Shown here piece by piece: positions 1 to 23,161 of a stretch of DNA of 23,839 nucleotides. Made by a program: the position numbers and the translations under genes. The DNA is from a virus: the IMG/VR virus record IMGVR_UViG_3300042463_000316, positions 1 to 23,839 of that record, one strand, 5' to 3'. The notes under the pieces were generated by a model. The model saw only the letters and a program-made list of their open reading frames with translations, was not told where the DNA came from and searched no databases. Numbering within the stretch: the stretch's first letter is position 1; each line of letters begins with the position of its first letter.

Positions 1-3000
1 GAGCAAACATCATCAAGTCTCTAGGAAGTTTACGTTGAATAGTCATATCAACATTATTAGCTCCCATTTCTGTATTTAATCTCTGTAAAGCAGATTGATA
101 AGCAGCTGTTGCTGCATCTAATTCTTCTTGTGTCTCAGCATTTAATACAGCATTTTGAAGTCTAATTAGCTCATCTTGTTCTTGACCTTGTTCTAAAACT
201 TCTTTAGCAGTAACTGGAGTAGTATCTGTAGCTAAATCCATATTTAGATTATTAAGTACTCTAGTATCAGTGACATTAGGGACTATTCCGTATTTAGCTT
301 CTTCTGCAGTAAGAAAAGTATTAAAATCTGATGGATCTTTATAGCCATCATTCCTAGTTACATTTGGTGCAATAGGTATTATAGGTGTAGTATTACCTGT
401 TGGCATATACTTATTTTCCTCAGTTGCTAAAAATTCTGCTAAATACTCATCTTCAGGATTTGCAAAATACTGTTGTGTTGGCGGTGGATCTCCTAACATA
501 CCTCCTTCAGCCATTAAACGTCCTCCGTATTTTTCAATATGATCTAATGGTTCATACATTTGTTGACCTAAATGTTGTCCCATTCCTAACATATTAAATG
601 CTGCAGGATCATAAGATGCTAAAGACTCGTTATACATTTGTCCACCATTTTCATGTTTCCATCCCGCAGCATTTTTTGCAAAATTTGCTTGACGTCTTGT
701 TGATGGATCATAAATTCCTTCTTTTGCACTTAGCACTTTATTAGCAAATTCTTGAACTCCCATACTTGCAGCATTTGCTTTAGCAGTAAACTTTCCTTTA
801 TTTGCAGGATTAATATTAATACTTCCTCCTGCTGCATAAAGATTAGTTAATGGTTGTCCTTGTGGACCAGCATTATCTTTATAAGTAGGATAATTAGCTT
901 TATATCTATGTTGAGGAACTAAGTATCCTCCTTGATTCATATAATTAGAATTCATCACTGCTCCTAATTGAGAAGAATAAGTAGGTGTATTATCTTCAGA
1001 AATTCCTAATTCTTTTCTTTTTTGGTCTTCTAAATACTCTACATATTTGTCTCCTGTAAAGTCTGTCCAACCTCCTTCGTAAGAACTGCGAGTAGTGATA
1101 GCTTTAAAAGGATTAAATAAACTTCCTAATACAGCTCCTGCTTTTGCAGTATTTTCATTTTGCAATTCTCCTTCGTCATTGTATTTTTCAAATACATTTT
1201 CTTTTAATTGTCCACCTACCATATCGCCTACTCCAATTAATCCTCCTACAACTGGATTAATTGCTGATGCTATGCCTACACCTGTATTATAAGCAGCATC
1301 TGCTTTTTGTTCTGCAGTAGCATTTTTATCAGCAAATGTCATTCCTGCATTAACACCTTGAGCAGCTAAACCTGCGTACTGTCCAATTTGTCCTGTAATT
1401 TTAGATGCTTTTTCTGCAGCAGTTGGCTCTGATCCTTTTGATAATGCAGATAAAGAAGATGCTATTCCTGGAGTAGGAGTACTAGCTAAGTAAGAACCTT
1501 GTGCAAGTCTAGCTTTTTCTTCTGCAGTTAAGCCGCCTCCGCCTTCAAACATTCTACCTCCGTAGTTGTACATATTACCACCATAGTTATACATACTACC
1601 TCCCATATTGTACATCTGTCCACCGAAGTTGTACATCTTTCCTCCGCACTTATACATATGGCCACCATAAGCCATAACTGGCATACCTGCTTGAGCTTCT
1701 GGCATTTGTGCTAACATTTCTGGTGGAATTTGATTAGAATCAACAGGTTGTCCTGTTTCATCCATCATTACTTCTTGCTCAGTCATTTCACCTGGCATAC
1801 CTTGTCCCATTTCCATTGGTTGATAAGACTGCATACCTTGCATCATTTGATTGTATAAATCAGGTGCTAATGATTGTAACTCTTGAAGTAGGTCATCTAC
1901 TTGTTCTTGCTTATAAAATTCTTGTGCCGCCATTAAATTATCTAGGTCACGTTTTATTGCATTCTCTTCTATAGTATCATTTTCTCTACGAGAAGTAGGA
2001 CGATTAAGAGTTTTAGAAGCGTCGGCAAAAGTTTTACCTATTAAGTTTTTAGATAAACCAAAAGCATTAACAGTTTCTTTATCAACTTTTAAACTATCTG
2101 AAAAGATATAATCTTCAGAGTTTAGTTTAGTCTCTCCTTGTTCTACTAAGTTTACTTGTCCGTTAGGAGCCATTCCTTGTGGAATTCCTCCAATAGGATT
2201 TTGTTCGTGAGTACCGCCAGCATTAAACTCTGTAAGTTGTGCCATAGGCCCACCGTCAGCAAAAGAGTTTGCTTTAATTTTTGCTTGTACATTAGTAGGT
2301 AGTGCTTTAAAACCTGGATTATTAAAGCTTCCTCCGTATTTAAAAGATGGATTTTGCATAGTTTCAAATTGTGATGTATTTCCCATTTCTCCTGTAGGAG
2401 TTGGTAAAAAAGGTTTATTATAATATTGCATAGATTCTTCTGGAGAAGTAAATAGCTTATTTGTATTAGGGTAGCTTCCTGGTAAATAACCAATAGGCGC
2501 TCCTCCTTCTTTAATACGAGAATCAAACTCTGGTTTATTTAAATATAAACCTGGAGTAGTAATTCCTGTAAAAGAATCAAATATAGAAGATTTAGCTACC
2601 TCTTCTCCTATATTTTTTGCTACAGCTCCTGCTTTTTTAGCAGCAGCTCCAATAGGATAACTAGCAAATAATTCTGCATTAATATAAGGTTGTGTGTTCA
2701 TTCCTCGTACATCAGTATCAGAATCTGTATGTACTATTGCTTGAGAAGCCATTCTTTCTGGATGTGCATAAACAGATTTTCCTGTAGATATATCAAATAA
2801 AGCACTTGCTCTACCTCCTATATTTAATCCTGTTAAAGGCCCTTTTCCTAAAGTATAATCTAATTGTCCTGAAACTTTAGGCCCCATTCTTCCAGCAGCC
2901 CCTTCTCCACCTTTAACTCTTTGTTCATAATTTTCAATAACTTCTCCAGAATTTAATTCTTCTAAGCTAACAGTAGGAGCATAAGTTCTTATTACACTAT

Positions 3001-6000
3001 ATGGAGCTTTTGTTTGAATAGTAAAAGGAAAACTTCCTCCTACATATCCATGTAATTTTCCTCTAGATTTTCCTGGGTCTTTTTTATTAAAGTGCACTTT
3101 AACTCCAGGTTCTGCTCCTGCATAAAATCCTCTATTTTGGCTATAACCTAATATAGCGTCTGCAAAAGCTTCTCCTCCTGGACCATACTCAGCATTAGTA
3201 TCTCCTAATTTACTAGCTAAACCTACACGACCTTCAATACCTATTTCTTTTGGACGAATTCCTCTAGTAAATTTTTCATAAGGAGCATTTGGAACTCCTA
3301 TTTCTCTAGCATATTCTCCTTCTAATTCAAATCTAGAAGGATCTTTTGCATATGCAGCAGCATTATCTGTATAGTCTTGATAAAACTTTAAAGATGCAGG
3401 AACTACAAGTCTATTGTTTTCTGCAGTAGATCTATTTAAATTAGGTTTTGTTAAACTTACATTATAACCTAAAGAATTAATATAATCGCTATAGTTATAA
3501 CTTGCAGGAGAATATTCTAATCTAAGTGCATTAGGATTTTTAATTTCTTTATAACCAGCACTTTTGATTCTAGATTTTCCGCCATTATCATATAGATTTC
3601 CTCCCATTTCGTGCTCTACTTTTTTAGCTTTGCCTTTAATGCTAACTTTTTGATTGCCAGGAGTTTTTGCAAATTCTCCTGATGCGTGTCCGTATGCTAA
3701 CCATTTTTGGTAAGCTCCTTTAGATTTAAAATTCATAGCTCCACCAGATTTAAAAGTAGTAGAATCATCTTCTGCTAAAGTACTTGTCGTAGGTACTTTT
3801 CCTGAAGATTTCATTCCTTGTAGACCTTGATTTAATATTTCTTTTCCTTCAATTAATGCAGGTCTAGATGCTCCTATAGCTCCTATCGGCATTAATGTAA
3901 AATCTTCAACAGCAGGACGAGGTAATAAATGTTCTGCTGGATTTACTAAATTAGGATCTTTTACTAAAGTTTGTAATTCAGGATTAGATTTAAATATATC
4001 TAAATTCTGATAACCTTCTGGATTAGCTGCAACTTCTCTTAAACCTTGTAATGTTTCATCAGAATATCCACTTAATTTTCCTGATGCAATTAAACTATCT
4101 ACATCTGCAATTGTTGGGATACTTCGTTGTCTAGCAATTAATCCCGCTCCTTCTGGTTTTATATTAGCTAAACTTTTTCCTGCAGCAGCGGCTTTTGTTT
4201 GCGGCACTCGATGTACAAATATTTGTTCTTGTCCTTTAGCATAATTAAAGGCATCAGGATTATCTTTCAAACTACTATAATATCTATTTCTTGTAGGACT
4301 TAAAGTTCCTTCAGCTACTGCTTTTTCATATGCAGCAAGATCTTCTACAGTTTTAAAATTAACTAAATCGTCTCTTTTAAATATGTCTGATATAGAAGCT
4401 TTTCCTGTAGCAACATTTCCGAGTCCTAATCTTTGTGATTGTCTAGCAGCTTCTCTAGCTCCTGATAAAGCTCCTAATCCTACAGGTACTCCAAGGTTTA
4501 ATCCTGCATTTAAAAGTTCGGCATTACGAGTCTCAGTATCTCCTTGCCTCTGTGCTTCTACAGCATTTGTAAGATTGCCTACTCCTTGTGCCCCAAAATA
4601 TATATCAGCAGCATTTCCTGCTGTAAGTCCTGAACCTAAAATCTCTGTTCCTGCTAAACCTGCTAAACCTTCTAATGCAGCAGGTACAGCACTAGCACCA
4701 AGAGGAAGCGCCCACATCCAATCTGTAGATTCTACTGGTGCATCATTATAGTTATTCCAAGCATTAGCTTGTTGCCCTGGAGTAGCAAACTTTTGTTCTT
4801 CTTTTGCTATTAATAAATCTCTTTGAGCATCTTCAATAGAATTAAACATTCCTTGTTTAACTAAAGCTTCAGCATTACTTTGTAATTCAGGAGTAATAAA
4901 TTGTGCAAGTTGATTAGCATCCATAGATTTATACATAAATCCTGGATCTTTAACATTTTTAACAGCAATACTTCTATCAATATTTTGAGAATATTGATTT
5001 AAGTTTTCTGCTTGCATTGTATTTTTAGCTACATTCTGAAGTGTTTCGCTAGGAGCAGTAGGTTGTAACAACGGGTTATAATTCTTTGTCCTTGGTTGCA
5101 CTACTGCTTGCTTATTTAACAACGCTGTTCTTTTACCTGATGGATCATTAACAGGAATAAAACCGTTAGTACCTGGCGCACTTATAAACCACTTATTATT
5201 TACTTTTTTATATTGAGCATCGGGTCTTCCTGCGTAGGTGTAAATAGGACCACCTAGATCATAAGTGTTAGCATTGATTTTCTTTTCTTGAGCTAACATT
5301 GCTTTAGTAGGTTTTTTACCAGAACCTTTATTTGCTCTAATATTATCCCATAGACCTCTTTGAGAATAACTACCGTCAGCACGTTTTAGCATTCCACCTT
5401 TTGCAAAATTTATAGGGCCTTCTGTGTTTCTTAAAAAAGTTTGTTCTTCAGGACTTGCAATAGATTCATTATATGTAGCAATATTTCTACCATACATATT
5501 AGTAATAGGTCTATACCCAATCTTTCTATCTTCATCTACAGCGTGTTGAAATGTTTGGTGCGCAGGAGATTTTAAATATTCTCCCGTATTACTATTAATA
5601 CTATATGCATGGTAATATCCATCATTTTGCTTTGGTTGACTATAATCAAATACCGATGGCCTACCCTCAGAATCCCAATATCCTCTTATATCATAAGTAA
5701 CATCATCTGTTTGTAGATTTTCAGGTAAAGTATTATAAAACTTTTTAAAAGCTTTTTCTTCTGCAGAATTTAATTTTGTTAAAGGTCCTCCGTTAACATA
5801 AGCATAACCTTTGCTAGGGTAATTGAGATCTTTGCCTTCTCCTTCTAACTGTGGAGTATTAGACATAGATAAAACACTTCCACCGTATTTATAAGGTGCA
5901 GGATATTGTCCTGATGTAGAAGCATAGATGCTATCTTTTAATCCTCTACCGCCTTGTCTAAAACTATCTTCTGGTAAAGAATAACCACGGTCAAAATATC

Positions 6001-6253
6001 CACCGTCTCTAAACATACTTCCTAATGCAGAAGCATAAGTGCTGTTTAGTAACTTTCCTGTTTCATTATCTCTATCATGGAGTGGTCCTCCGTCTGCGTA
6101 ATAGTTTCCTAGATCTGATGCAAAGAAACTATTAGGATAAGGTTGCGCTAAAAGCTCTCCACCATTTTCAAACGGTAAAGCTGTAGTATCTCGATATACA
6201 GGTATTCCTTTTGATTTATAAGGATGTGGAATATTTTTAGGCTTCTTCTTCAT
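1..6253 (-). CDS. Giant crAss-type cargo-like virion protein, 3' end outside window
   Basis: One open frame runs from the ATG at 6253 (N-terminus MKKKPKNIPHPYKSKG) to the left edge, giving at least 2084 residues with no stop. I checked the frame at about ten places. The start overlaps the stop of the muzzle-like gene as TAATG. Short GG motifs (NGG, DGG, YGG) recur throughout. Around residue 1345 is GGTHEQNPIGGIPQG followed by NLVEQGE and DYIFSD, a signature I associate with very large virion proteins of crAss-like phages. Residues 1527-1574 form a GGxMYxx heptad repeat. Hydrophobic stretches lie near residues 513-565 and 1655-1680, and residues about 1020-1200 alternate like beta strands of an outer-membrane barrel. 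Known context: in crAss-like phages a giant protein beside the muzzle gene is capsid cargo that leaves with the DNA. Inferred role: ejected internal protein. It has no recognisable enzyme motif, so it is not an RNA polymerase subunit as far as I can see. Confidence 0.85.
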   Translation of the reverse strand, partial: MKKKPKNIPHPYKSKGIPVYRDTTALPFENGGELLAQPYPNSFFASDLGNYYADGGPLHDRDNETGKLLNSTYASALGSMFRDGGYFDRGYSLPEDSFRQGGRGLKDSIYASTSGQYPAPYKYGGSVLSMSNTPQLEGEGKDLNYPSKGYAYVNGGPLTKLNSAEEKAFKKFYNTLPENLQTDDVTYDIRGYWDSEGRPSVFDYSQPKQNDGYYHAYSINSNTGEYLKSPAHQTFQHAVDEDRKIGYRPITNMYGRNIATYNESIASPEEQTFLRNTEGPINFAKGGMLKRADGSYSQRGLWDNIRANKGSGKKPTKAMLAQEKKINANTYDLGGPIYTYAGRPDAQYKKVNNKWFISAPGTNGFIPVNDPSGKRTALLNKQAVVQPRTKNYNPLLQPTAPSETLQNVAKNTMQAENLNQYSQNIDRSIAVKNVKDPGFMYKSMDANQLAQFITPELQSNAEALVKQGMFNSIEDAQRDLLIAKEEQKFATPGQQANAWNNYNDAPVESTDWMWALPLGASAVPAALEGLAGLAGTEILGSGLTAGNAADIYFGAQGVGNLTNAVEAQRQGDTETRNAELLNAGLNLGVPVGLGALSGAREAARQSQRLGLGNVATGKASISDIFKRDDLVNFKTVEDLAAYEKAVAEGTLSPTRNRYYSSLKDNPDAFNYAKGQEQIFVHRVPQTKAAAAGKSLANIKPEGAGLIARQRSIPTIADVDSLIASGKLSGYSDETLQGLREVAANPEGYQNLDIFKSNPELQTLVKDPNLVNPAEHLLPRPAVEDFTLMPIGAIGASRPALIEGKEILNQGLQGMKSSGKVPTTSTLAEDDSTTFKSGGAMNFKSKGAYQKWLAYGHASGEFAKTPGNQKVSIKGKAKKVEHEMGGNLYDNGGKSRIKSAGYKEIKNPNALRLEYSPASYNYSDYINSLGYNVSLTKPNLNRSTAENNRLVVPASLKFYQDYTDNAAAYAKDPSRFELEGEYAREIGVPNAPYEKFTRGIRPKEIGIEGRVGLASKLGDTNAEYGPGGEAFADAILGYSQNRGFYAGAEPGVKVHFNKKDPGKSRGKLHGYVGGSFPFTIQTKAPYSVIRTYAPTVSLEELNSGEVIENYEQRVKGGEGAAGRMGPKVSGQLDYTLGKGPLTGLNIGGRASALFDISTGKSVYAHPERMASQAIVHTDSDTDVRGMNTQPYINAELFASYPIGAAAKKAGAVAKNIGEEVAKSSIFDSFTGITTPGLYLNKPEFDSRIKEGGAPIGYLPGSYPNTNKLFTSPEESMQYYNKPFLPTPTGEMGNTSQFETMQNPSFKYGGSFNNPGFKALPTNVQAKIKANSFADGGPMAQLTEFNAGGTHEQNPIGGIPQGMAPNGQVNLVEQGETKLNSEDYIFSDSLKVDKETVNAFGLSKNLIGKTFADASKTLNRPTSRRENDTIEENAIKRDLDNLMAAQEFYKQEQVDDLLQELQSLAPDLYNQMMQGMQSYQPMEMGQGMPGEMTEQEVMMDETGQPVDSNQIPPEMLAQMPEAQAGMPVMAYGGHMYKCGGKMYNFGGQMYNMGGSMYNYGGNMYNYGGRMFEGGGGLTAEEKARLAQGSYLASTPTPGIASSLSALSKGSEPTAAEKASKITGQIGQYAGLAAQGVNAGMTFADKNATAEQKADAAYNTGVGIASAINPVVGGLIGVGDMVGGQLKENVFEKYNDEGELQNENTAKAGAVLGSLFNPFKAITTRSSYEGGWTDFTGDKYVEYLEDQKRKELGISEDNTPTYSSQLGAVMNSNYMNQGGYLVPQHRYKANYPTYKDNAGPQGQPLTNLYAAGGSININPANKGKFTAKANAASMGVQEFANKVLSAKEGIYDPSTRRQANFAKNAAGWKHENGGQMYNESLASYDPAAFNMLGMGQHLGQQMYEPLDHIEKYGGRLMAEGGMLGDPPPTQQYFANPEDEYLAEFLATEENKYMPTGNTTPIIPIAPNVTRNDGYKDPSDFNTFLTAEEAKYGIVPNVTDTRVLNNLNMDLATDTTPVTAKEVLEQGQEQDELIRLQNAVLNAETQEELDAATAAYQSALQRLNTEMGANNVDMTIQRKLPRDLMMFA
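1532..1675 (-). repeat. GGxMYxx heptad repeat inside the giant cargo-like protein
   Basis: Read on the minus strand, residues 1527-1574 are six near-perfect heptads (MAYGGHM, YKCGGKM, YNFGGQM, YNMGGSM, YNYGGNM, YNYGGRM) and then FEGGGG. Each 21-nt unit shares the Gly-Gly codons, a Met and a Tyr, while the three other positions vary (H/K/Q/S/N/R after GG). The nucleotide repeat is imperfect, so it looks like an old in-frame expansion under protein-level selection. Low-complexity Gly/Tyr/Met tracts of this type suggest a flexible or aggregating linker; the function is unknown. It follows an acidic, Met/Gln-rich region (residues about 1450-1526). Confidence 0.85.
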
Positions 6254-9200
6254 TAGAATATTTGGACATCATAGTAAGACATTAATTTGTTGCAAATAAT
6301 CTCTTTGTTATACGAGTTATCAAAGTATAAAGTTACAATAAAATACGTACTACGCAAACGATCTTTTTGACTAGTGCTAATTTGGTTTCTAGGTATTTTA
6401 ACGCGCCATTTATCAAATTTACGTTTTAATCTATTTGAGGAGTAAAGTATCTTACCTGTATCTTGATATTCTGTTTGAACCCTAAAAGCTGTAATAGTTT
6501 GTGTACGATCTATTACTTTAGCATCATTTCTTACAACAGAATTATATTCTAAAGTTCTAAGAACTTTATTGAAATCTGCATTAGGATTAACTACCATTGT
6601 AATGTAAGCCTCTTGTACTTCTCCATAAAATTCTCCCCAATTTCCTATATTATGGGTATATACAACGTCTTGATTTTCTGGATCAGGGGACATTAATATA
6701 TCTCCATTTTCTAAATAAATTGTAGGGGTTGCAGAATAATGAGAAGAAAATTGTTGTAGTAAGTCATCATAAACAATACTAGCATTAAAAAATCTATCTT
6801 CTTCAGGATTTACTTCTCTAGAATTTCCTATAATAGTAAATAAAATAGTTAAAGGATCGCTACCTGTAGTAAATTCTGTTTCTACTAAATAATATGTATC
6901 TGTAGATTCTACAAAAATTATATCTCCTGGATAATAAGTAGTTCTTACTAAAGGAAGTAAATAAGTTCCTGTGCCTCTAAATGTAAAAATTATTTCATCA
7001 TTAACTTTATCTCTTCCTATTGTAATACCTCTAGATAAAATGGGATTATCACCTCCATTTTCTTTTCTCCAAAATATAGCATCAGGTAAAAATTTAAGCC
7101 AACTGTGAATACCTTTAAGTTCGGAAATAGGAACATTACCATCTTCTATTTTTCCTCTTAAAAATATTTTTCTGTGAATTGCATCAAAGAAATATATTCC
7201 GTTGTCTGTAGTTTTTACTCCCCACTGATGAATAGCTCCGTGCTCTTTAGAATAATATTGATGCTTACCGAATCCTTGACCTGTACCCAACTCTGTAGGA
7301 ACTCCATCAGCAGTAGTAGTAATAGCGGCTCGGTTAATAGCGTAGACTCCTACTGCTTTATCCTGAATAAAATGTATTAAGTCTTTCCAGTTAACTATTT
7401 TATTTATAGGGCCGTAGTCATCAATATCATAGTAATTGTTAATTCCAAATTGTGTCCACGAATCTATTAGTTCATTGTTAATCTTAACATTAGAAAGATA
7501 TGCTCGAACATCGTTGATAATACAATCTCCTTGTTCTTCTGGTTTAACTACATATACAATCTCTCTATTTTCTTGCGAAGCAATTGTCATATAATCATAC
7601 ATTCGCAATGAAGGAGCAATTGTATAAGAGTTTCCGTTTTCTTGTTTTAATAAAGCGTACTCACCTGTATTCCAAGTAAATTTAGCTTGAGTTTTTAAAG
7701 TAGCTCCTGTTGCTAAATCTAAATTAAAATGACATTCTATAGGATAAAGTTCAGTGACACTATTAGTTTTTCTGTATAAATCATTTCCGTCAGATCCTTT
7801 AAAATAAAAATCTTTTTCAAGTTCGGCAAGTCCTGCTTGGAAAGTAAACATTCCTATAAAAGTATCTCCACCATAAACTATTGGGCTTGGGGGTGTAAGA
7901 GCATTTATTTCTATCACTGGAGATGCTATCATAAATTTGTTAATCTCTAAAGCATTTTGAGAATAACCGTCGTAAACTTCTGCTCTAGGAATTACTATAT
8001 CTATAATAGGAGTACATTGACTGTGTATTCCTAAATTAGGTGCAAATGTTAAAGGATTAGCTACATCTGTTCCTCCAGAAAGTCCTCCATTTAATACATT
8101 AGGAGATCTAAAATAATTATACATTTGAGAAGGTAACCCTGTTATAGCTAAACCTGTTAATGGGTCAATGTTGATATAAGTCATATTACCTATTACTCCT
8201 GATCCTGATTTATAAATCTCAGGAGTAGTTGTACTAGCACTTCCTTGTGGGTTATTTAAATGAGCAGCAGCATTTAAAAAGTCGTCTATTACATAATAGT
8301 TTCTCATATAATAGCTGTCATAATTACTAGTAACTTTTTCTTTATAATCACTAGTGTATGGCATAGCCATAAAAACAGCATTCTTAAACTTTTTAATCTG
8401 ATGCACAGGAGATGAAGATACTACAGGAAAAGTATTTCTAACAGTTGTTCCCCACTCTTGACAGTTATCTGCTAAATCTATACCATTAAGATCTATATTT
8501 CCTCCACCTAATTGAGTTCGGCCGTTATATCCATAAGCACCAACAATTAATAATGAACTGTTAGTAGCAATTGATGGGACTAATACTTGGGTGTTTTGTG
8601 TACCATAAGATAATTCTGGAGAATAGAATCCTATGTAATCTCCTTTTAAATAATAATCTCCAAGAGGAGATACTTGAATTTGAGTAACACTTGGCGAAGG
8701 GGGAGTAGCATCTACATCATGGTCTGTAAGTGTAGTAAAAGCTGCGTTAAGATTTCCTGAAGATCCCGCATAAGGAAATAAATGTAATGCTCTACCGTTA
8801 GTAACTCCTTCTGGAATACGTAAATCAAAGTTTACTCCTGATGCTGGATTTACTACAGGAGCTCTCCAAAATGTTTTTAGTACTCCTTGTGCTAAACGAT
8901 GGCGATCCGACTCTTCTCTTTTTACCCTTACTACTTGGTAGCTAGTAACTTTGTTTAATAAAGATGCACAAGAAGTAAGGTCTATACTAAATTCTATTCC
9001 TAAACTAAGTCCTATAGTATTAAATTGAAAAGGAACACCTGCATTTTCTTCTAATGCTGTAGGATAGTAATAATAATCTACTCCGTCTACTGTGCAAGTA
9101 ACTTCATCGTTAACATCACTTAAATCTGGAAACTTAATATCTCCAATGTACTCTACATAAGTAGCCTCACCTTTGTTAGTATAAAATACTATACCAAAAC

Positions 9201-10719
9201 GATAAACTTCTCCTCTTTTATATCCTCTTAATAATCCTGACAAAAATGGTGAAGCAAAACTAGGAAAAGTCGTATTAGTATAATCTCCGTATCCGTCGTT
9301 TAAATTATGAAGAGGAAAATCTGGAATATTAGATACGTTTCCAAAACCTGCTGTAGGATTATTACCGTCGATAGTCATACGTTCTAGATGAAACTTATAA
9401 CTAATGTTAGGCCCGTCTCCTCCTAATGTAGTACCGTTAGCTTTATATTTATATTGAAGATTAGTATGCCAATTAGGATCCCATTGAGCATCTGTGTTGT
9501 ATCCCCTAGTTGCCGAAGCTACACTGCTTACATTAAAAGCATTTTTTAAATTATTAGCTAAAGTACCTGGAGTAAATGGCGGAGAAACAATTCCTCCTAC
9601 ATTTCTATATCTTCTAGTTTTAGCATCAAAAGTTTCACCAGGTTCTAATAAATCTTGCACACTAACTATTGAGCCTTTTATGTTAGCAATAACTAATGAA
9701 GCATCTTTTTGAGTTAATGTTTTTGCAGTTTTAAAAGGATAAGATTTAGTAGTAAAAGTTAAAAGTTCTATTGGAAATTCTTGTCCTTCTACTCCTGTAT
9801 AAGTAAAAGTAATTTCTGGTAAATTATTAATATTAGTTTCTTCTGCTAAAGTTACTTCTGGTACAGGATTTAAAGAACTACCGTTTGGATATCTAACTAC
9901 AATAAGTTGTATTGTTTCATACTGTCCGTAATTACTAGTATCGATTGTAACCTCAATAGATTTACTAGTATTTTCATCTAGTAAATCTGATCCAAAATAA
10001 TTAGCAGATTGTGTTAAAGTTTCACTTGCAGGTACTATGTGAAACAAATTACTTGGAGGAGAAACAAGAGTTTCTTTACCATCTACAGTAACAAGTCTGT
10101 AAGCTACTTGGTATGTTCCTGCTAACATAGATCCCCCACCTGTTACTACTTTTAATAACGGTTGAGTATATTCAATATCGGGAAAAATATCTAATAATCC
10201 AGGAACAATATTAGGAAGATTAGGATCTACAATATTAATAGTTCTTAAAAAATTATTGTAATCTGTCCAATATACTCTTTGTTTACAGTCTGATTCATAA
10301 TGACCAATTGCTTCTATTGGCCATTCTTTGTTAAACATTAGTATATTACTATAATAAACTAAACTTGGGTATCCAGGTAAAATTTCTAAAGTTGCTTCGT
10401 CATACTCTACTTCATAAATCCAACCGTTTGATCCTGAATCATCTGCTACAAAAAATACTATTTTATTTCTAATTGTAGTATATCCAATAATTGCTACTGT
10501 TCCTACAGCAGACCAAGTTCCAAAAGGATCACCTTCTTCAGATTCTGTAGGAATAGTAAATGCTTCAGTGTTACCTTTAATATTTGTCCAAGACCCCATA
10601 GATTCTCCACGATCTGTAGAAATTCTAATGTCGTTAGCATCTATATAAAAATTAGGTTGAATTACGTCTCTACCTGCATCTTTATTGAGTCCTGAATAAT
10701 TATTTATATGTCTTTCCAT
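6253..10719 (-). CDS. crAss-type muzzle / stabilization-like tail protein
   Basis: The product is 1488 aa. It opens with MERHINNYSGLNKDAGRDV, followed by YIDANDIRIST, the start I associate with the protein called stabilization protein in crAss-like genomes and muzzle in the structural work on phiCrAss001. The body is beta-rich, full of Thr, Asn, Gly and Tyr, and has no signal peptide or membrane segment. Useful landmarks are YQVAYRLVTVDGKETLVSPP near residue 200, YQVVRVKREESDRHRLAQG near the middle and GINYFDAIHRK-like text in the C-terminal half (read GIYFFDAIHRKIFLRGK). Family knowledge: it forms the distal gate of the short tail. It starts one base after the preceding gene's stop, and its own stop shares a base with the cargo gene start, which implies translational coupling and co-assembly. 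The family call is by eye; the virion role is likely, the exact position in the tail is inferred. Confidence 0.8.
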   Translation of the reverse strand: MERHINNYSGLNKDAGRDVIQPNFYIDANDIRISTDRGESMGSWTNIKGNTEAFTIPTESEEGDPFGTWSAVGTVAIIGYTTIRNKIVFFVADDSGSNGWIYEVEYDEATLEILPGYPSLVYYSNILMFNKEWPIEAIGHYESDCKQRVYWTDYNNFLRTINIVDPNLPNIVPGLLDIFPDIEYTQPLLKVVTGGGSMLAGTYQVAYRLVTVDGKETLVSPPSNLFHIVPASETLTQSANYFGSDLLDENTSKSIEVTIDTSNYGQYETIQLIVVRYPNGSSLNPVPEVTLAEETNINNLPEITFTYTGVEGQEFPIELLTFTTKSYPFKTAKTLTQKDASLVIANIKGSIVSVQDLLEPGETFDAKTRRYRNVGGIVSPPFTPGTLANNLKNAFNVSSVASATRGYNTDAQWDPNWHTNLQYKYKANGTTLGGDGPNISYKFHLERMTIDGNNPTAGFGNVSNIPDFPLHNLNDGYGDYTNTTFPSFASPFLSGLLRGYKRGEVYRFGIVFYTNKGEATYVEYIGDIKFPDLSDVNDEVTCTVDGVDYYYYPTALEENAGVPFQFNTIGLSLGIEFSIDLTSCASLLNKVTSYQVVRVKREESDRHRLAQGVLKTFWRAPVVNPASGVNFDLRIPEGVTNGRALHLFPYAGSSGNLNAAFTTLTDHDVDATPPSPSVTQIQVSPLGDYYLKGDYIGFYSPELSYGTQNTQVLVPSIATNSSLLIVGAYGYNGRTQLGGGNIDLNGIDLADNCQEWGTTVRNTFPVVSSSPVHQIKKFKNAVFMAMPYTSDYKEKVTSNYDSYYMRNYYVIDDFLNAAAHLNNPQGSASTTTPEIYKSGSGVIGNMTYINIDPLTGLAITGLPSQMYNYFRSPNVLNGGLSGGTDVANPLTFAPNLGIHSQCTPIIDIVIPRAEVYDGYSQNALEINKFMIASPVIEINALTPPSPIVYGGDTFIGMFTFQAGLAELEKDFYFKGSDGNDLYRKTNSVTELYPIECHFNLDLATGATLKTQAKFTWNTGEYALLKQENGNSYTIAPSLRMYDYMTIASQENREIVYVVKPEEQGDCIINDVRAYLSNVKINNELIDSWTQFGINNYYDIDDYGPINKIVNWKDLIHFIQDKAVGVYAINRAAITTTADGVPTELGTGQGFGKHQYYSKEHGAIHQWGVKTTDNGIYFFDAIHRKIFLRGKIEDGNVPISELKGIHSWLKFLPDAIFWRKENGGDNPILSRGITIGRDKVNDEIIFTFRGTGTYLLPLVRTTYYPGDIIFVESTDTYYLVETEFTTGSDPLTILFTIIGNSREVNPEEDRFFNASIVYDDLLQQFSSHYSATPTIYLENGDILMSPDPENQDVVYTHNIGNWGEFYGEVQEAYITMVVNPNADFNKVLRTLEYNSVVRNDAKVIDRTQTITAFRVQTEYQDTGKILYSSNRLKRKFDKWRVKIPRNQISTSQKDRLRSTYFIVTLYFDNSYNKEIICNKLMSYYDVQIF

Positions 10720-10720
10720 A

Positions 10721-11551
10721 TTATACTGATGTAGCGCCTCCTGCAGTAGGATTTGACATTACGCTTGTAGCATTAATTGTAGATACTAATCCTAAAGTTG
10801 CTTTAGGTCTAAATTTACGAAGTTCTGGAAGTTGCATATTAGCAAAGAAACTTGCGTGATCCTGTAACTGCGGAATAGTACGTACAGTTGCATTTTTTAC
10901 TGTTTCTGCTTCATCTACACCGTTCCATTGTTTAGCATGGTTAACTGCTTGAGCAAAATACCAATCACGATCTCTTTCTATAATTTGATATTTGTCTCCT
11001 GCAAGCTCGTTACGTATCCAAAGTTTTCTTGCAATTTTATGTGCAATATAATGAGCCCCTGCTTCTAACCATTGTTGTTCTGCAGGAATAGTAGGATAGC
11101 CACACTCGTCAGTTGGAATAGCGGAATAACTCATTGCGATAATACCGTGATTTTGCGAAGTAAAAATATATCCTTGTCCTACTGTATAAGTATTTCTAGA
11201 TTCTGAAGTATAATCACGATTATCTAGATGATAACGTTTGTGAAAATAATCAGTCTTCCAACGCATTGGAACCATACGGCCTTTTCCGCATTGTGCCTCT
11301 TCAATAGTTTCTACTCCTTCTATAGTTGCAGTTTGCCCTATTTTATAAAGATCAAAAGGAAGATCCGCTCTACCATCACATACTTCCATATAGGCAATTT
11401 TTTCTTCCATAGTCACACCTACATTAGTGTGTGCCATGAATTCTGCTAACCATTCTACTCCTTCTTCTTCGTTAATATCGTAGTTAAAGCCGAAATCCCT
11501 GATAGTTTTATCAAGGATTGTTTTATATGAAACGGTATGTCCAGCGTACAT
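10721..11551 (-). CDS. Virion neck/tail ring or adaptor protein, crAss-type
   Basis: This 276-aa soluble protein has the segment MSYSAIPTDECGYPTIPAEQ near the middle, then an alpha-helical stretch with HYIAHKIARKLWIRNELAG. I associate this pattern (short beta lead, YPxIP, then a long helix) with a structural protein found next to the IHF-like and muzzle genes in crAss-like phages, where ring or head-tail adaptor proteins sit. No catalytic motif is seen. The C-terminal 30 residues are low in charge and rich in Thr, Ser and Ala, which suggests a flexible tail. Its ATG shares a base with the stop of the 97-aa gene (TAATG), and the muzzle gene follows after one base. A structural role is likely; which ring it is cannot be told from sequence alone. 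Confidence 0.65.
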   Translation of the reverse strand: MYAGHTVSYKTILDKTIRDFGFNYDINEEEGVEWLAEFMAHTNVGVTMEEKIAYMEVCDGRADLPFDLYKIGQTATIEGVETIEEAQCGKGRMVPMRWKTDYFHKRYHLDNRDYTSESRNTYTVGQGYIFTSQNHGIIAMSYSAIPTDECGYPTIPAEQQWLEAGAHYIAHKIARKLWIRNELAGDKYQIIERDRDWYFAQAVNHAKQWNGVDEAETVKNATVRTIPQLQDHASFFANMQLPELRKFRPKATLGLVSTINATSVMSNPTAGGATSV

Positions 11552-11844: not shown

Positions 11845-12379
11845 AATAAAATACTTTTCTGTTAGGGTCTTTAACTATTTTAGCTATTAGTCTAGAGTAT
11901 TGTCTAGACGGTTTAAACTTATAAAAATTTTTATACTTAAGAGCAGTGGTTATTTTATCCCAATGATGCTCATAAAATTCTTGTGATGTATGCTCGTTTT
12001 CGTGATAAATAACTGTTTTATCTTTTATCTCAGTTATTTGCTGACGATTTAAATCTGGATATTTATTATGCCAATGTGCCCAGGTTTTATGCCAATCAAC
12101 TCTTAGTGTTTTAGATTTAATTCCTTCTTTATTAAAAAACACTAATTTTTTAGATCTTATTCTAAATTTTCCAACAGATGGTATTTTAATTTCTAATCCT
12201 GTTGTTACAATTTCTTCGCTAAATGTAGAAATTAAATCTTTTAAAAAAGCATTATAAACTACTTTATCTACTTTATTTTCTTTTGAATGTAGCAAATAAT
12301 ATTTCCAAAAGTCACTTTTTTTTACATTGCCTGTAACTTTTCCTTTTCCTCTTTGTAAATATGTTAGTTTATTTGACAT
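11837..12379 (-). CDS. IHF/HU-like virion protein (crAss IHF subunit family)
   Basis: The product is 180 aa. Residues about 15-85 follow the HU/IHF layout: helices in KKSDFWKYYLLHSK and YNAFLKDLISTFSEEIV, then the beta platform GLEIKIPSVGKFRIRSKK, where GKFRIR corresponds to the conserved G-x-F core. Cellular HU/IHF subunits are about 90-100 aa. This protein carries roughly 90 further residues, with VDWHKTW, VIYHENEHTSQEFYEHHWDK and a basic end. That extension (VDW, HxNEHT, WDK) is what I recall of the protein annotated as IHF subunit in crAss-like genomes, which sits in the tail module and is a structural ring component in some members. It lies between two other neck-type genes and starts on the stop of the upstream one (TAATG). 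Alternative: a nucleoid-type DNA-binding protein packaged with the genome. Confidence 0.75.
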   Translation of the reverse strand: MSNKLTYLQRGKGKVTGNVKKSDFWKYYLLHSKENKVDKVVYNAFLKDLISTFSEEIVTTGLEIKIPSVGKFRIRSKKLVFFNKEGIKSKTLRVDWHKTWAHWHNKYPDLNRQQITEIKDKTVIYHENEHTSQEFYEHHWDKITTALKYKNFYKFKPSRQYSRLIAKIVKDPNRKVFYYG

Positions 12380-13086
12380 TACTGTTGTTGTCTAGGAGAT
12401 TGACTTGCTCTTTCATCTTCAGTATTATTAGCATCATCATATTTAAACATACCTTTTTGTATCAACTCTTGTAAAATAATAGGTTTAATATATGCCCAAA
12501 GCCACTGGTTAATTGGGTAAGGATCTGAAGGTTTCCAACAAGTACTATTAGTTTGGCAATTAACAAAGTTTCCTAATTCTGTAGGATCTTCAAATACTCC
12601 TCTAACTGTAATATATTTCATTAAATAGTGTGTAGTATCTTTACTAAACACATAAATATAATTATCATATAAAAAAGTATAAATTGATTTTTTAGTAGTC
12701 CTACCATTTCCTGCATAAGGAACTCTAGAATAATCTATAAGCAAAAATCTAGGTTTCATAATATCTGCAGGCCCTATAGATACAATTGCTTTTTTAAAAA
12801 ATAATTCTAATGTATTTGGAATCTTTTCTTTAGTCCTAAGAACTTTACATCCTGAAGGCACACTTATACAACATTGTATAGGATCTACTTGCTCTAATTC
12901 TAAACAAGATAAATCTTGTATTACAAAAGGATCAATACTACGGTTTTTATTATACTCGTTTCTTAACCATAAAGATCTTTGAGCATTTATTAAATCTGTA
13001 AAGTATTCATATGAATAAGAAGACTCTACGGAATTAATCGCAAGAGCTTCATCAATTTGGCCATGAAGATCATCTAATGACAGCAT
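12379..13086 (-). CDS. Putative crAss-type neck ring / adaptor protein
   Basis: This 235-aa protein begins MLSLDDLHGQIDEALAINSV and has a helical N-terminus (YEYFTDLINAQRSLWLRNEYN, seen in two parts), a beta-rich middle with several Cys (SCLELEQVDPIQCCIS, CKVLRTKEKIP), and a C-terminal helix (WLWAYIKPIILQELIQKGMF) before a charged, Gln-rich tail ending SPRQQQ. This plan (helices, beta barrel with an LI-x-Y strand, final helix) resembles connector or ring proteins in the neck of podoviruses, and the position upstream of the IHF-like gene fits crAss gene order. It starts 24 nt after the 46-aa gene, and a TATATTTG box lies 5 nt before its ATG. Structural role probable, exact name uncertain. Confidence 0.6.
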   Translation of the reverse strand: MLSLDDLHGQIDEALAINSVESSYSYEYFTDLINAQRSLWLRNEYNKNRSIDPFVIQDLSCLELEQVDPIQCCISVPSGCKVLRTKEKIPNTLELFFKKAIVSIGPADIMKPRFLLIDYSRVPYAGNGRTTKKSIYTFLYDNYIYVFSKDTTHYLMKYITVRGVFEDPTELGNFVNCQTNSTCWKPSDPYPINQWLWAYIKPIILQELIQKGMFKYDDANNTEDERASQSPRQQQ

Positions 13087-13253: not shown

Positions 13254-13412
13254 TTATCTATTTTTAATAGTAAAGTTTAAAATAGTAAGTAGATAAAACT
13301 CTCTAGATATATCCACTTCTATAGTAAAGAAATCAATTTTGCCAAGTCTAAATCTTATTGCAAACTTGTCCCATTGTTTATTCTTTACTTTCCATGTATT
13401 TCTAAAAATCAT
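13254..13412 (-). CDS. 52-aa small protein of unknown function
   Basis: This short gene starts MIFRNTWKVKNKQWDKFAI, has RFRLGKIDFFTIEVDISREF in the middle and ends LLTILNFTIKNR. It is basic and beta-rich, with alternating hydrophobic residues, and has no membrane span or signal peptide. Its ATG overlaps the TGA of the endolysin gene (ATGA) and its TAA ends 2 nt before the 46-aa gene, so it is translationally coupled at both ends, the best evidence that it is expressed. I do not recognise a family. Confidence 0.75.
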   Translation of the reverse strand: MIFRNTWKVKNKQWDKFAIRFRLGKIDFFTIEVDISREFYLLTILNFTIKNR

Positions 13413-14218
13413 ACTATATCGTTTGATTCGATTAATGTATAAGTAAACTTATTTCCGTGAATTGCTCTTGCTTTACGACAAATTGCCATAAACTCTTCAA
13501 AGTGTGCAGATTTCTTAAACACTTGGCATCCTTCGCTCCAATTTTCTACAAATGTAGAATCTGAACCTGCCTTGTGTATGTTAATTCCAAATAGACCTTC
13601 TTGTGTTCTATCTTCAGCATACACCATGTTACGGTCTGCATCACGGTAAACTTTTACAGGTTTGTTTTGTCCCAATGCTTCATATTTACCTGCGTGAAGT
13701 CTCATTATGTGAGAATCAATGTATTGACCTTCAACAAGTCTTGCAACTCCTGCTTTGTTACCAAACTTCATAACACCTTTAGTTCCTGGGTCAGTAGTCG
13801 CTGGCCAACAATGAAAGTGCTCTACACCATCAATAGTATAAGTTAAAGTTAAATGGTCATCAAATAGGTTAGTTACTTTTTGCCCTGTAGAAGAGTTACG
13901 TACTCCTATAATGTTAAGCATTAAGTCTTTACCTTCAAACCACTTGTAACCTTTAGATGCTACTGCGGTTTTTACTTGAGTTGCTGTGTATTTAGCAACA
14001 GCTGCTGGTTTAGAAGCTACAGGTTTACTATCTACAGTAATGCCCATCTTAGCTAGTGTAGCAGGACCTACTACTCCATCAGGAGTTAATCCGTTTTTAG
14101 TTTGCCAAGCTTTAACTGCTTCTTCTGTTTTAGGTCCAAAATTTCCTACTGGATCTACACCTAATACTACTTGAATCTTTTTAACAACCTCGTTGTTGTC
14201 TCCTCTTTTAAGTACCAT
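13409..14218 (-). CDS. Endolysin candidate: peptidoglycan-binding plus L,D-transpeptidase-like domain
   Basis: The product is 269 aa with two domains. Residues 3-61 are a PG_binding_1 repeat (LKRGDNNEVVKKIQVVLG, then GPKTEEAVKAWQ and DGVVGPATLAKMG). After a short Ala/Lys/Pro linker, residues about 85-265 form a beta-rich domain carrying GINIHKAG and, 13 residues after the His, SEGCQVF. A His followed by Ser-x-Gly-Cys is the active-site pattern of YkuD-type L,D-transpeptidases, and proteins with NIHxxG...WSxGCQVF occur in phages as putative lysis enzymes. There is no signal peptide, so release would depend on a holin, and a two-span holin-like gene ends 2 nt upstream. It might cut, rather than make, cross-links; that is inference. 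Alternative: a virion-associated wall enzyme. Confidence 0.75.
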   Translation of the reverse strand: MVLKRGDNNEVVKKIQVVLGVDPVGNFGPKTEEAVKAWQTKNGLTPDGVVGPATLAKMGITVDSKPVASKPAAVAKYTATQVKTAVASKGYKWFEGKDLMLNIIGVRNSSTGQKVTNLFDDHLTLTYTIDGVEHFHCWPATTDPGTKGVMKFGNKAGVARLVEGQYIDSHIMRLHAGKYEALGQNKPVKVYRDADRNMVYAEDRTQEGLFGINIHKAGSDSTFVENWSEGCQVFKKSAHFEEFMAICRKARAIHGNKFTYTLIESNDIV

Positions 14219-16642: not shown

Positions 16643-17521
16643 TTATACAGGAAATCTATAACTATCTACATGGTTATATATCAAATCTGCTTTACGGTTA
16701 CGGAGTGCTTTTATTTTAAGGATTCGTCCGCCTATTGGTTTAACGGGTGCGCCTCTTTCAACGTGCCATCCGTGTGTACCTTCACCGTATTCCTCTTTGT
16801 ACGTTCCTGTGAGCATCAAGTGAATATACCGTTGGTTTAATCTGTAGCCAGTCTTTGCATGGTGGTCTAAAGTCTCTCTTACATCTGTACGTCCTGCGTT
16901 TTCGTGAATGTGACCCATTGTGAATACGTCCATGTTTTCGTACATTTCTAAGGCTCTAGTAAGATTCAATGCTCCTTTGGTAACTACACCACCTCCACCT
17001 GAACCGTGAAAGTGTTTAATTCTTGTTGTAAGTACAGCAGTAGAACCTTTTTGAGATACGTTTTTAACCACTATCCAACCACCGTAACCTGAAGTGTATA
17101 CTTGTGAGTTATTTTTGTAGTTCAATAGATCTACAAATCTTTGTAGAATGTCAGTTTCTTGCCACTTGATTATCGCAGTCTCGTGGTTACCGTAACCGAT
17201 TACTTTAATAATGTCTGCATACGGAGAAAACCATTCAGCAGCAGTTTCTACGATAGAGTCTAAATACCTAGCGTTGTTATGTTCAGGTAGGATGTCAGAC
17301 TTGTTACCTCGCTTATCACCTTTGCCTTGCATTAAACAAAACAAATCCCCATTAATTATAACAGGGATGTCGTTCGCTTTGCAGTAGTCAAGATGTAGAG
17401 TAAGTTGTTCACGGTCACATTTTGGGTTATCCCAGTGTAAGTCGGATAACATTGCTATCTCAACTTCAGGCTTGTCAAATATGATTTCGTGAATGTTTTT
17501 AGAATGTTTTTTAACTTGCAT
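16643..17521 (-). CDS. Calcineurin-like metallophosphoesterase
   Basis: The product is 292 aa with the metal-binding motifs of the metallophosphoesterase superfamily in order: DLH (Asp27, His29), GD (Gly58-Asp59), GNHE (111-114), a lone His pair in KHFHG (170-173) and GHIHE (203-207). The set is complete, so the enzyme should be active on a phosphoester, probably nucleic acid or a nucleotide given the phage setting; the substrate cannot be told. It lacks the extra domains of SbcD/Mre11 nucleases. It lies between the fibre genes and the lysis cassette, an unusual place for a nucleic-acid enzyme. Its base composition looks richer in G and C than its neighbours (about half of one 60-nt stretch near 16741), which may mean separate acquisition. 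It starts 20 nt after the 52-aa gene stop. Confidence 0.9.
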   Translation of the reverse strand: MQVKKHSKNIHEIIFDKPEVEIAMLSDLHWDNPKCDREQLTLHLDYCKANDIPVIINGDLFCLMQGKGDKRGNKSDILPEHNNARYLDSIVETAAEWFSPYADIIKVIGYGNHETAIIKWQETDILQRFVDLLNYKNNSQVYTSGYGGWIVVKNVSQKGSTAVLTTRIKHFHGSGGGGVVTKGALNLTRALEMYENMDVFTMGHIHENAGRTDVRETLDHHAKTGYRLNQRYIHLMLTGTYKEEYGEGTHGWHVERGAPVKPIGGRILKIKALRNRKADLIYNHVDSYRFPV

Positions 17522-17702: not shown

Positions 17703-19901
17703 TTACCCTATTATAGTCCAACCCCTAGATGTTACTATTAATCTATCTGCTGCTGTCAACCCTGCTGCTCCAGTAGCTCCAGTAATATTTATAGTCTTAG
17801 CCGTAACAGTACCTTGTGCTGCCATATCATTAAACAACTGTACTAACTGAGCAGTTGACATATTGGTATAAGAAACATTTATCTGAGGAGATGAGCCTGT
17901 CCATTGTCCTGCTGATGTATTTAATAATCTAACAGATTGAACGTCAGTTTTACCAATTGATAGTGTAGAAGTTGAATTTAAACCAAGCGTTGATAATGGA
18001 GCAGCAAAAGATATAGAAGTTAATCTATTGTTTGTATTAGCATTAGCAGCCGCTAATGGTGTAGCTGTTAAAGAACCTAGCCTGTTAAAGTTGGCTATAG
18101 TAGTTAAATTTTGACAATTTGCAAATATACCAGTCATACCAATTACAGAACTAAGTTGTGCAGCACCTGGGAAAACTACAGTTTTAAGTGAAGTACAGTT
18201 GAAAAAAATATTATTAAAGCTAGTAGCTGCTGTAGAAACAGTATTAGGTAACGTGACTGATTGTATTAGTCTACATCTAAAAAACATACCACCAAAATTT
18301 GTGCAAGCACTCATCGATGTCGGAAGTGTTACTGATGTTAAATCGTCACAGTCTACAAATAAATCACTTACTGTTGTAACAGCATTTAATGTGGAAGGAA
18401 ATGTAACAGTTTTTAAAGTTCTACACACATTAAAAGTGCTACTTAATGCAGTCAAACTTGTCATGCTTGTAGGTAGGTTTATTGCTGTTAAATTTACACA
18501 ACCGTTAAATGCAGAAGCTAAACTAGTTAATGAGTTTTGAGCACCTGGAGTCCAGTTTAATGTTTTTAATGAAACACAATTATTAAAAGTACTAGCTAGA
18601 GTTCCAATAGTTAAAGTAGAAGGTATAGTTGCCTCTTCTAATTTATAGCAGTTAACAAATGCACTACCTAAAGAAACTCCTGTAGTTGCTGTTGTAGGAA
18701 GTGTTATTTTTCTTAATGAATAACAATTTTGAAAAATAGTAGCAAATGTAGTACATGATGGTGTAGATGTAGGAAGTATGCAAGATGTTAAAGAAGAACA
18801 TCCAAAAAATGTATTAGAAAAAGTACTTACATTTATATTAGATGGTAATACTATGCTTTTTAATTGAAAACAGTTAAAAAAAGATTGAGTAAAATCATAT
18901 GTACTTGTAGGTGTAGCGGTTGCTGGAAAATATACATTTTGTAAGTTAAAACACTCACTAAATATTGAAGTAAAATTTATAGAGGCTACAGTTGGTAAGC
19001 TATTAAATTTAACCCATTCTAATTGCCAACAACCTGCAAAAGCACTTGAAAAACCAGCAATATTATTAATAGAAGGTAGTGTAATATTTCTTAAATTACG
19101 GCAGTTAAAAAAAGCGGTATTAAAATTTGTACAACTGTTCAATGATGTAGGAAAAGTAACTGTTCTTAAACTAGTACAACCACTAAATGCACTTCCTAAA
19201 CCTGTAATACCAGTTGCATTAGATGGAAGTATAACCTCAAGTAAGTTAACGCAATCTTGAAAGGCACTATTTAAACTTGTTAAACTAGATGCTGATGTAG
19301 GCATTATTATTGTCGTTAACGCATTACATCCATTTACTATATTAGTAAGATTGCCCCAAGATACGGTAGCTGGTAGTTTTATGTACTGAAGTAGGTTAAA
19401 TACACTGACAGAGCCGTTATTTAAAGGAGCTGACCAAAAAGAAGGAAAAGTAGATGGCACTGTACCATTGCCGTAGTATGCCTCTAGTATCCCACATGAT
19501 TGAGCGCTAATTGTAACTCCAGATATAGGTATTGCAGATATTTGGCAACCACTTAAAACGGAAACACCAGTTCCTGTAAAATAAACTCTAATCTTAAACG
19601 TAGTATATCCTAAAGAACAAGGAGTACCTGTCCCTGGAGTATATGTTTTTGTAGATACAGTGAAACCTGTTGTTGTTACTGTTGTAGTTGTTGCATCTCC
19701 CCAATCAATGACTATATTCTGAGTCCCTGATGTTCTAGTAAATGCAGTTGTTATCTGACATGAAGCATCTCCTAAATCACAAATTAAAAACTGAACCTCA
19801 TTGGCAGCATCTGTAATAACTGGCCAATCTACAGGCCTTACCCAATTAGATGGGCCTTCAACTCTACTAAAATAATTCTGTACAGGTAAATTAAATGCCA
19901 T
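17703..19901 (-). CDS. BspA-type leucine-rich-repeat adhesin, likely receptor-binding protein
   Basis: The product is 732 aa. Residues about 20-110 form a PKD-like beta domain with IDWGDATTTT at 65. From about 185 to 601 there are 17 repeats of some 24 residues with the core F-x-x-C-x-x-L-x-x-[VI]-x-[LF]-P, for instance FSGCTSLRTVTFPTSL, FFNCRNLRNITLPS and FNGCVNLTAINLPTSM. This is the BspA/TpLRR type, known from surface proteins of Bacteroides and Treponema that bind host or bacterial surfaces. The C-terminal 130 residues end with LTAADRLIVTSRGWTIIG after a VQLFNDMA helix. No signal peptide, so it is not a bacterial surface protein. Set among fibre genes, it is best read as a virion adhesin (inference). 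It starts 2 nt after the upstream stop. Confidence 0.85.
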   Translation of the reverse strand: MAFNLPVQNYFSRVEGPSNWVRPVDWPVITDAANEVQFLICDLGDASCQITTAFTRTSGTQNIVIDWGDATTTTVTTTGFTVSTKTYTPGTGTPCSLGYTTFKIRVYFTGTGVSVLSGCQISAIPISGVTISAQSCGILEAYYGNGTVPSTFPSFWSAPLNNGSVSVFNLLQYIKLPATVSWGNLTNIVNGCNALTTIIMPTSASSLTSLNSAFQDCVNLLEVILPSNATGITGLGSAFSGCTSLRTVTFPTSLNSCTNFNTAFFNCRNLRNITLPSINNIAGFSSAFAGCWQLEWVKFNSLPTVASINFTSIFSECFNLQNVYFPATATPTSTYDFTQSFFNCFQLKSIVLPSNINVSTFSNTFFGCSSLTSCILPTSTPSCTTFATIFQNCYSLRKITLPTTATTGVSLGSAFVNCYKLEEATIPSTLTIGTLASTFNNCVSLKTLNWTPGAQNSLTSLASAFNGCVNLTAINLPTSMTSLTALSSTFNVCRTLKTVTFPSTLNAVTTVSDLFVDCDDLTSVTLPTSMSACTNFGGMFFRCRLIQSVTLPNTVSTAATSFNNIFFNCTSLKTVVFPGAAQLSSVIGMTGIFANCQNLTTIANFNRLGSLTATPLAAANANTNNRLTSISFAAPLSTLGLNSTSTLSIGKTDVQSVRLLNTSAGQWTGSSPQINVSYTNMSTAQLVQLFNDMAAQGTVTAKTINITGATGAAGLTAADRLIVTSRGWTIIG
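18099..19349 (-). repeat. 17 tandem BspA-type leucine-rich repeats
   Basis: Residues about 185-601 of the LRR protein are 17 units averaging 24-25 residues. Each carries a Cys between two small or polar residues ([NGQSD]-C) and a following Leu-x-x-Ile/Val. Units differ in the surface positions while the hydrophobic core is kept. The nucleotide repeats have diverged and no two units look identical, so this is not a recent expansion. Such arrays often gain or lose whole units, which would change the binding surface. Confidence 0.8.
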
Positions 19902-22179: not shown

Positions 22180-22397
22180 GCTTCAAATGGGTTTGGAGTT
22201 GGCTTTGGCTCGTATGGAATCAAAGGAAGTTCTTTTACCCATAGAAACTCAGGAGTCACACATTGGTCTATTTCTTCTACTGAGATAATCCAATTATCGT
22301 TCAAGTCCTGAATAGGATTGAAATACGAATCCTCGTCATATAACTGACCTAATAATTCGTCTTTTTGTACTTCTGTTAATAGTCCTACTTGTATCAT
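22176..22397 (-). CDS. 73-aa small protein of the fibre region
   Basis: The product starts MIQVGLLTEVQKDELLGQLY and ends PYEPKPTPNPFEA. It is acidic, with a helical start and a WIISVEEIDQC strand/helix in the middle followed by a Pro-rich tail. I recall proteins with LLTxxQKDxLxGxxYxxDSYFNPIQD in fibre regions of phages, without known function. Its ATG overlaps the TGA of the homing endonuclease gene and its own TGA overlaps the next ATG, so the three are tightly coupled. Possibly a fibre assembly helper. Confidence 0.75.
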   Translation of the reverse strand: MIQVGLLTEVQKDELLGQLYDEDSYFNPIQDLNDNWIISVEEIDQCVTPEFLWVKELPLIPYEPKPTPNPFEA

Positions 22398-23107: not shown

Positions 23108-23129
23108 ATTATTCCATCTTCCCATTAAA

Positions 23130-23161
23130 CAAATATACAACAATGTAAGCATATTATCAAG
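23130..23161 (-). promoter_or_regulatory. Candidate promoter of the homing endonuclease
   Basis: The minus strand has CTTG at 23161-23158, a 20-nt spacer and TATATTTG at 23137-23130. The second matches the Bacteroidota -7 consensus TAnnTTTG, and the first matches three of four bases of the -33 TTTG. Transcription would begin near 23125, giving a leader of about 18 nt before the ATG at 23107, with GGAAGATGGA ahead of it. This supports the downstream start and an independently expressed gene. Confidence 0.45.

Follow-up and report, generated by a model that had tools for sequence, protein, structure and literature searches.

A giant, mosaic gene of the cargo protein 1 family truncated at the edge of a crassvirus contig

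The window analysed here is the whole of a 23,839-nucleotide stretch of viral DNA (IMG/VR record IMGVR_UViG_3300042463_000316, positions 1 to 23,839), the first quarter of which is taken up by a single minus-strand reading frame that runs off the left edge. With a probability of roughly 0.8, we read this frame as most of the cargo protein 1 (C1) gene of a crassvirus only distantly related to the named genera, encoding a portal-anchored ejection protein. By its anchor domain, CARG1, and by the place of its gene the protein belongs to the cargo protein 1 family, to which it is new by its size and make-up. Observed directly are the stop-free frame, its CARG1 domain, the order of the genes, the mosaic build of the protein and, in relatives, both fused and split versions of the gene.

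2..6253, minus strand: giant gene of the cargo protein 1 family, 2084 codons open to the left edge and without its 3' end

The frame opens with an ATG at 6253 and continues to the left edge (2084 aa, 226 kDa) with zero stops, against 96-266 stops apiece in the remaining five frames across 1-6253; from the base composition, the chance of 2084 stop-free codons is ~10^-75. GC content at its first, second and third codon positions is 50%, 42% and 13%, and its start overlaps the stop codon of the upstream muzzle gene (TAATG). Relatives were collected by an IMG/VR scan with the CARG1 alignment, which returned 217, of which 80 were kept. The near-identical contig L002, from another record, encodes residues 1-1219 with four nucleotide differences, three synonymous and one Ile/Val, while the complete 1809-aa ORF of L003 is 44-64% identical to the window protein in several blocks. 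The overlap with the upstream gene, the open frame, the codon GC and L002 together show that the giant frame is a genuine gene cut by the contig edge. A stop-free minus-strand frame from 6253 to 1 had been proposed in an earlier note on this DNA, and it is borne out: translation of the complement leftwards from 6253 with partial frames allowed meets no in-frame stop or frameshift inside 1-6253. The product is also, as proposed there, the largest protein of the window, with at least 2084 residues (the runner-up is the muzzle protein, with 1488), and the out-of-frame 124-aa ORF which had been expected at 2152-2526 is present as a mechanical ORF.

1907..2236, minus strand: crAss_CARG1 portal-binding domain, about residues 1340-1449, from Pfam, gp45 and the alignment
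6253..10719, minus strand: muzzle protein gene, 1488 aa (PF25731, E 1.7e-126)
10721..11551, minus strand: tail ring protein 1 gene (PF24228, E 2.4e-43)
12379..13086, minus strand: tail ring protein 2 gene (PF25702, E 2.6e-35)

The identity of the gene is provided by one domain and by its neighbours. Pfam finds PF25725 (crAss_CARG1) at residues 1340-1451 (E 2.5e-26, 92.8 bits, the curated cut-off being 27 bits), and among solved structures the sole match is cargo protein 1, gp45, of phiCrAss001 (PDB 7qog_M; E 1e-13, residues 1339-1450), a second, weak block pairing window residues 1802-1871 with gp45 366-428. The motifs GGxHE, NLVE.GE and Y.FS are conserved in the CARG1 alignment of nine members. 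PHROGs and NCBIfam assigned no family to the window protein, and Pfam searches with seven pieces of it, none containing the whole of CARG1, gave no match at E up to 1. The order ring 1, muzzle, giant gene is that of phiCrAss001, where gp45 comes after gp44 (muzzle), and in relatives that could be read further ring, muzzle and C1 are succeeded by a C2-like gene and by a giant gene resembling gp47. The suggestion of the earlier note that the frame encodes virion cargo of a crAss-like phage is supported by both domain matches and by the muzzle and ring synteny, and the comparison it called for, with the large virion proteins of phiCrAss001, returned gp45. The capsid protein of L002 (Crass_capsid, E 1.8e-83) is 31% identical to its best named match, which places the phage among the crassviruses but far from the named genera.

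Neither an exact search with the first 34 window bases nor a search with the last 215 residues found a contig continuing beyond the left edge, and the stop codon of the giant gene is therefore unseen. Most intact relatives have a C-terminal domain which is absent from the post-CARG1 part present in the window. The 3' end beyond the contig probably carries this domain, in which case the full-length protein should be ~2300-2500 aa and end in it (160-180 residues matched).

Profile searches of our own on the fetched loci resolve the window protein into a string of modules, in the order N-terminal signature, KRADG, insert domain, NFKS, beta-rich domain, CARG1, GGxMYxx repeats, hydrophobic stretch and KGKFT.

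6152..6253, minus strand: N-terminal signature MKKKPKNIP..RDTTALPF.NGG, residues 1-34; in most relatives it begins a separate upstream gene
5273..5398, minus strand: short basic module KRADG, residues 286-327
4454..4717, minus strand: Ala/Gly-rich hydrophobic stretch, possible membrane segments, residues 513-600 (hydropathy, best 19-residue mean 1.33)
3875..4441, minus strand: insert domain with no Pfam match, residues 605-793; also in L003, L004, L018 and L072
3596..3736, minus strand: short basic module NFKS...YGHASG, residues 840-886
2519..3337, minus strand: beta-rich insert domain, residues 973-1245, whose close relatives are confined to L026 and L044
1529..1672, minus strand: seven-residue tandem repeats GGxMYxx, residues 1528-1575
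1205..1291, minus strand: Gly-rich hydrophobic stretch, possible membrane segment, residues 1655-1683 (the top hydropathy of the protein, 1.55)
635..838, minus strand: short basic module KGKFT, residues 1806-1873

Neither insert (605-793, 973-1245) had a tblastn match in the named phages. The hydrophobic stretches are of modest hydropathy, that at 513-600 preceding CARG1 and the stronger one at 1655-1683 following it. The position of KGKFT varies, being before CARG1 in gp45 and L005 and after it in the window protein and cr108_1.

C1 genes in six named genomes encode 609-923 aa, and the longest closed CARG1 frames among the kept relatives 1809 and 1802 aa; the window protein is longer than that of any kept relative, and its CARG1 also starts latest. 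The extra length is a mosaic of swappable modules. As in the window, the N-terminal signature and CARG1 lie in a single frame in L003, L005 and L030, while ~15 distinct loci have two adjacent genes between the muzzle gene and the C2-like gene, the pair totalling ~1670-2900 aa (for example L004, L018, L020, L023-L027, L029, L034-L036, L038 and L044). Either a pair of genes has fused to give the window gene, or a single gene has split to give the pair. Both the mosaic make-up and the frequent division into two genes had escaped the earlier note. Genes of this kind go unannotated where a contig ends within them, and they can readily be mistaken for two unrelated hypothetical proteins.

Two further observations concern this division. 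A nearly identical AT-rich spacer of ~54 bases is found in L024 (2516-2571), L025, L026 and L027, with TATCTTTAC close upstream of the second gene's ATG; it is absent where the two genes are fused, and may be promoter-like for Bacteroidota. Elsewhere (L045, L050, L053, L055, L071 and L077) CARG1 and the C-terminal domain lie in separate short frames, which could reflect reassigned stop codons or gene splitting; stop-codon reassignment is known in crassviruses.

The joints of the string have a signature of their own. The motif [YF]-x-x-G-G-x-[ML] recurs in the window protein, with modules beginning 1-2 residues downstream: KRADG, NFKS and NNPGF begin exactly two residues past a GG motif and KGKFT one. 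Counted as GG with [FYMWHI] two or three places ahead, such sites number 31 in the window protein against 7.3 in shuffled sequences, none of 1000 shuffles reaching as high, and the window muzzle shows no such excess (the same count). In the pooled proteins Y and F are enriched 5.9-fold and 6.7-fold over background three places ahead of the first G, and M 5.7-fold three places past it. Second genes of relatives open at or near the same modules, with MSKKDLIKRADG, MNFKS or MNRGINNPGF, and it is at GG linkers that the fused and split versions of the gene differ. We read the GG as a flexible joint between modules, at which genes can split or fuse without harm; the chain might also be cut there.

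What is strung between the joints differs among relatives. Among 43 C1 proteins a glucosaminidase is present in 8, a phage lysozyme in 2 and a GH19 domain in 1, and in L026 and L044 the glucosaminidase shares its chain with a relative of the window's beta-rich domain. Where relatives often carry glucosaminidase, the window protein has its insert domain, unmatched in Pfam, and its beta-rich domain. In the named gut crassviruses cr128_1 (L012) and cr85_1 (L013), whose C1 is annotated as a hypothetical protein, an apparent lysozyme-like sequence, read by eye, lies between KGKFT and CARG1. We found no description in the literature searched of modular or hydrolase-bearing crassvirus cargo proteins or of a giant C1, which does not prove that none exists.

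The beta-rich domain may be a barrel. A structure model built from three sequences has about 11 strands (pLDDT 33), and the outer-membrane proteins among its Foldseek hits were none of them significant. A second beta module, present in L020 (twice), L031-L034, L037, L040 and L047, is better modelled: that of L033 (pLDDT 60) has ten strands of ~12-15 residues, and the structure closest to it is that of a designed membrane barrel, also of ten strands (Z 15.0, 2.3 A, 140 residues aligned). Next come soluble barrels of the nitrobindin type (Z about 12) and natural outer-membrane barrels such as Pla, OpcA, NalP and KdgM (Z 10.5-11.4), the two classes together spanning Z 10-12.5. Compared by hhalign, the window-type domain and the barrel module score 34.2 (E 4e-4, probability 35%), where 200 shuffled profiles gave 12.7 +/- 2.3 (maximum 24) and reversed profiles 21-23, so by profile comparison the window-type domain appears to resemble the module of L033, L020 and others beyond chance, if distantly. 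Profile searches of PDB sequences with both beta families gave no match, and a search with one barrel-family member gave near copies only. A beta-barrel at 973-1245 of the window protein is plausible because its similarity to the ten-strand module stands above these controls; that it is of the membrane type would be a further step.

The proposed role follows from phiCrAss001, in which gp45 was found in the virion by mass spectrometry and cryo-electron microscopy, with twelve copies of its residues 425-552 docked on the portal wing within the capsid and residues 214-245 in the tail barrel, and was expected by the authors to leave first and help build a membrane channel (PMC10172136). By analogy, CARG1 (1340-1451) would dock on the portal wing and hold copies of C1 in the virion, C1 would be ejected ahead of the DNA, and the ejected modules would help make a passage through outer membrane, peptidoglycan and inner membrane. 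The Gly/Ala-rich hydrophobic stretches could serve for a membrane, next to the possible beta-barrel at 973-1245; in many relatives a peptidoglycan hydrolase from that region would contribute as well. Packaging, portal docking, early ejection and an envelope role for each module are predictions, and the presence of the protein in the virion of the window phage is predicted from gp45.

The window protein and gp45 share the portal-binding domain, the post-muzzle place, KGKFT, GG motifs and a Gly-rich hydrophobic stretch. They also differ: gp45 has 842 aa and the window protein 2084 or more, CARG1 is followed in the window protein by KGKFT and its strongest hydrophobic stretch, and the window protein has ~900 more residues before CARG1, including the insert and beta-rich domains, which were not found in gp45. 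Several points tell against an ejection role modelled on gp45. The window protein is at least 2.5 times as long as gp45. The predicted membrane helix of gp45 (136-158) precedes CARG1, whereas the window's strongest hydrophobic stretch follows it. No glucosaminidase or lysozyme was recognised in the window protein, in the Pfam scan of the whole protein or with the seven pieces at E up to 1, and the model of its beta domain is itself of very low confidence. Capacity is a further difficulty: in phiCrAss001 the tail barrel lumen is estimated to hold 0.4 MDa and the capsid zone 5.1 MDa (PMC10172136), and twelve copies of residues 1-1339 amount to 1.7 MDa, within the capsid zone but above the tail barrel. 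Either the number of copies or their location must therefore depart from that of gp45: most of this mass would have to lie in the head, or fewer copies be present.

Other readings of the same frame have to be weighed against a portal-anchored ejection protein. The joined frame could be an assembly artefact in which two genes were misjoined, since relatives often carry two genes here and the window and L002 alike break off within the gene; but L002 has the same sequence across residues 1-1219, the intact fused gene of L003 (1809 aa) carries N-terminal signature, insert, NFKS and CARG1 in the order seen here, and the beta domain is linked to CARG1 in L026 just as in the window. Misassembly, scarcely credible in view of these three loci, was set aside. 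The product might instead be a virion polyprotein, a single chain cleaved behind its GG motifs, in which case fused and split genes would yield the same products. The strong enrichment of the motif, the four window modules that begin one or two residues past GG and the second genes of relatives that begin at or near the same modules all speak for cutting, but the motif may merely be a flexible joint that tolerates recombination, and in phiCrAss001 a single uncut chain accounts for both of the separate gp45 parts that were assigned; we consider a polyprotein unlikely.

The remaining alternative concerns the N-terminal 1300 residues, which might be an exposed tail or muzzle-linked component fused to C1 and not cargo. 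In most relatives this part has its own gene between muzzle and C1, and the upstream gene of L033 has barrel and glucosaminidase domains of its own. Yet in L003, L005 and L030 the N-terminal part is in one chain with the portal-binding domain, which is intracapsid in phiCrAss001, and N-terminal peptides of gp45 were detected in the virion by mass spectrometry and placed in the tail lumen (PMC10172136); a non-cargo N-terminus therefore seems improbable to us.

Taken as a portal-anchored ejection protein, the window protein can be compared with two other groups. Modules, CARG1 and synteny are common to it and other IMG/VR C1 proteins (L003, L026, L044, L005), with L003 and L005 also having the N-terminal signature in the same chain; each has its own module set, however, most are split in two genes, and many have the glucosaminidase that the window protein lacks. 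With gp14, gp15 and gp16 of T7 the likeness is hypothetical, namely that of internal virion proteins ejected first which traverse both membranes and the peptidoglycan between them; we found no relation in sequence and claim none. T7 gp14 forms a helical channel where a beta-barrel is suggested in the window protein, and three proteins would be replaced by one long chain. T7-type ejection proteins follow the same principle of exchangeable hydrolase domains, since the domain that cuts peptidoglycan may sit in the homologue of gp16 or in that of gp15 (PMC8954989). We tentatively propose that some crassviruses have one long virion cargo protein, or two adjacent ones, equipped with a beta-barrel for the outer membrane, a peptidoglycan hydrolase and segments for the inner membrane, and assembled by module exchange at GG linkers, although we doubt that all of this will hold. 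If true, this would be a one-chain kit for crossing the envelope, which bears on how crassviruses bring DNA and a large RNA polymerase across the Bacteroidota envelope, C1 being thought to exit first. The structures so far assigned in C1 cover the smaller part of its chain. C1 in the relatives combines a conserved portal anchor and C-terminal domain with interchangeable envelope-related modules, each of which can be expressed and tested.

Several features lie elsewhere in the window. A 732-aa protein amid virion genes (17703-19901, minus strand) has BspA-type leucine-rich repeats (PF13306, E 4e-40), from which an adhesion or host-contact role is possible; the GC skew changes sign at 18-19 kb, at this gene. 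The 269-aa product of 13409-14218 (minus strand) has a peptidoglycan-binding domain (PF01471, E 8.7e-14) and is similar to phage endolysin families, and a calcineurin-like phosphoesterase or DNA repair exonuclease homologue (16643-17521, minus strand) also lies amid structural genes. At ~20921 the 97% identity to contig L098 ends, 40 bases excepted, which we read as a local replacement or insertion. An HNH/endonuclease VII-like gene is present at 22394-23152 (minus strand), and in phiCrAss001 the corresponding block is interrupted by genes annotated as intron-type endonucleases.

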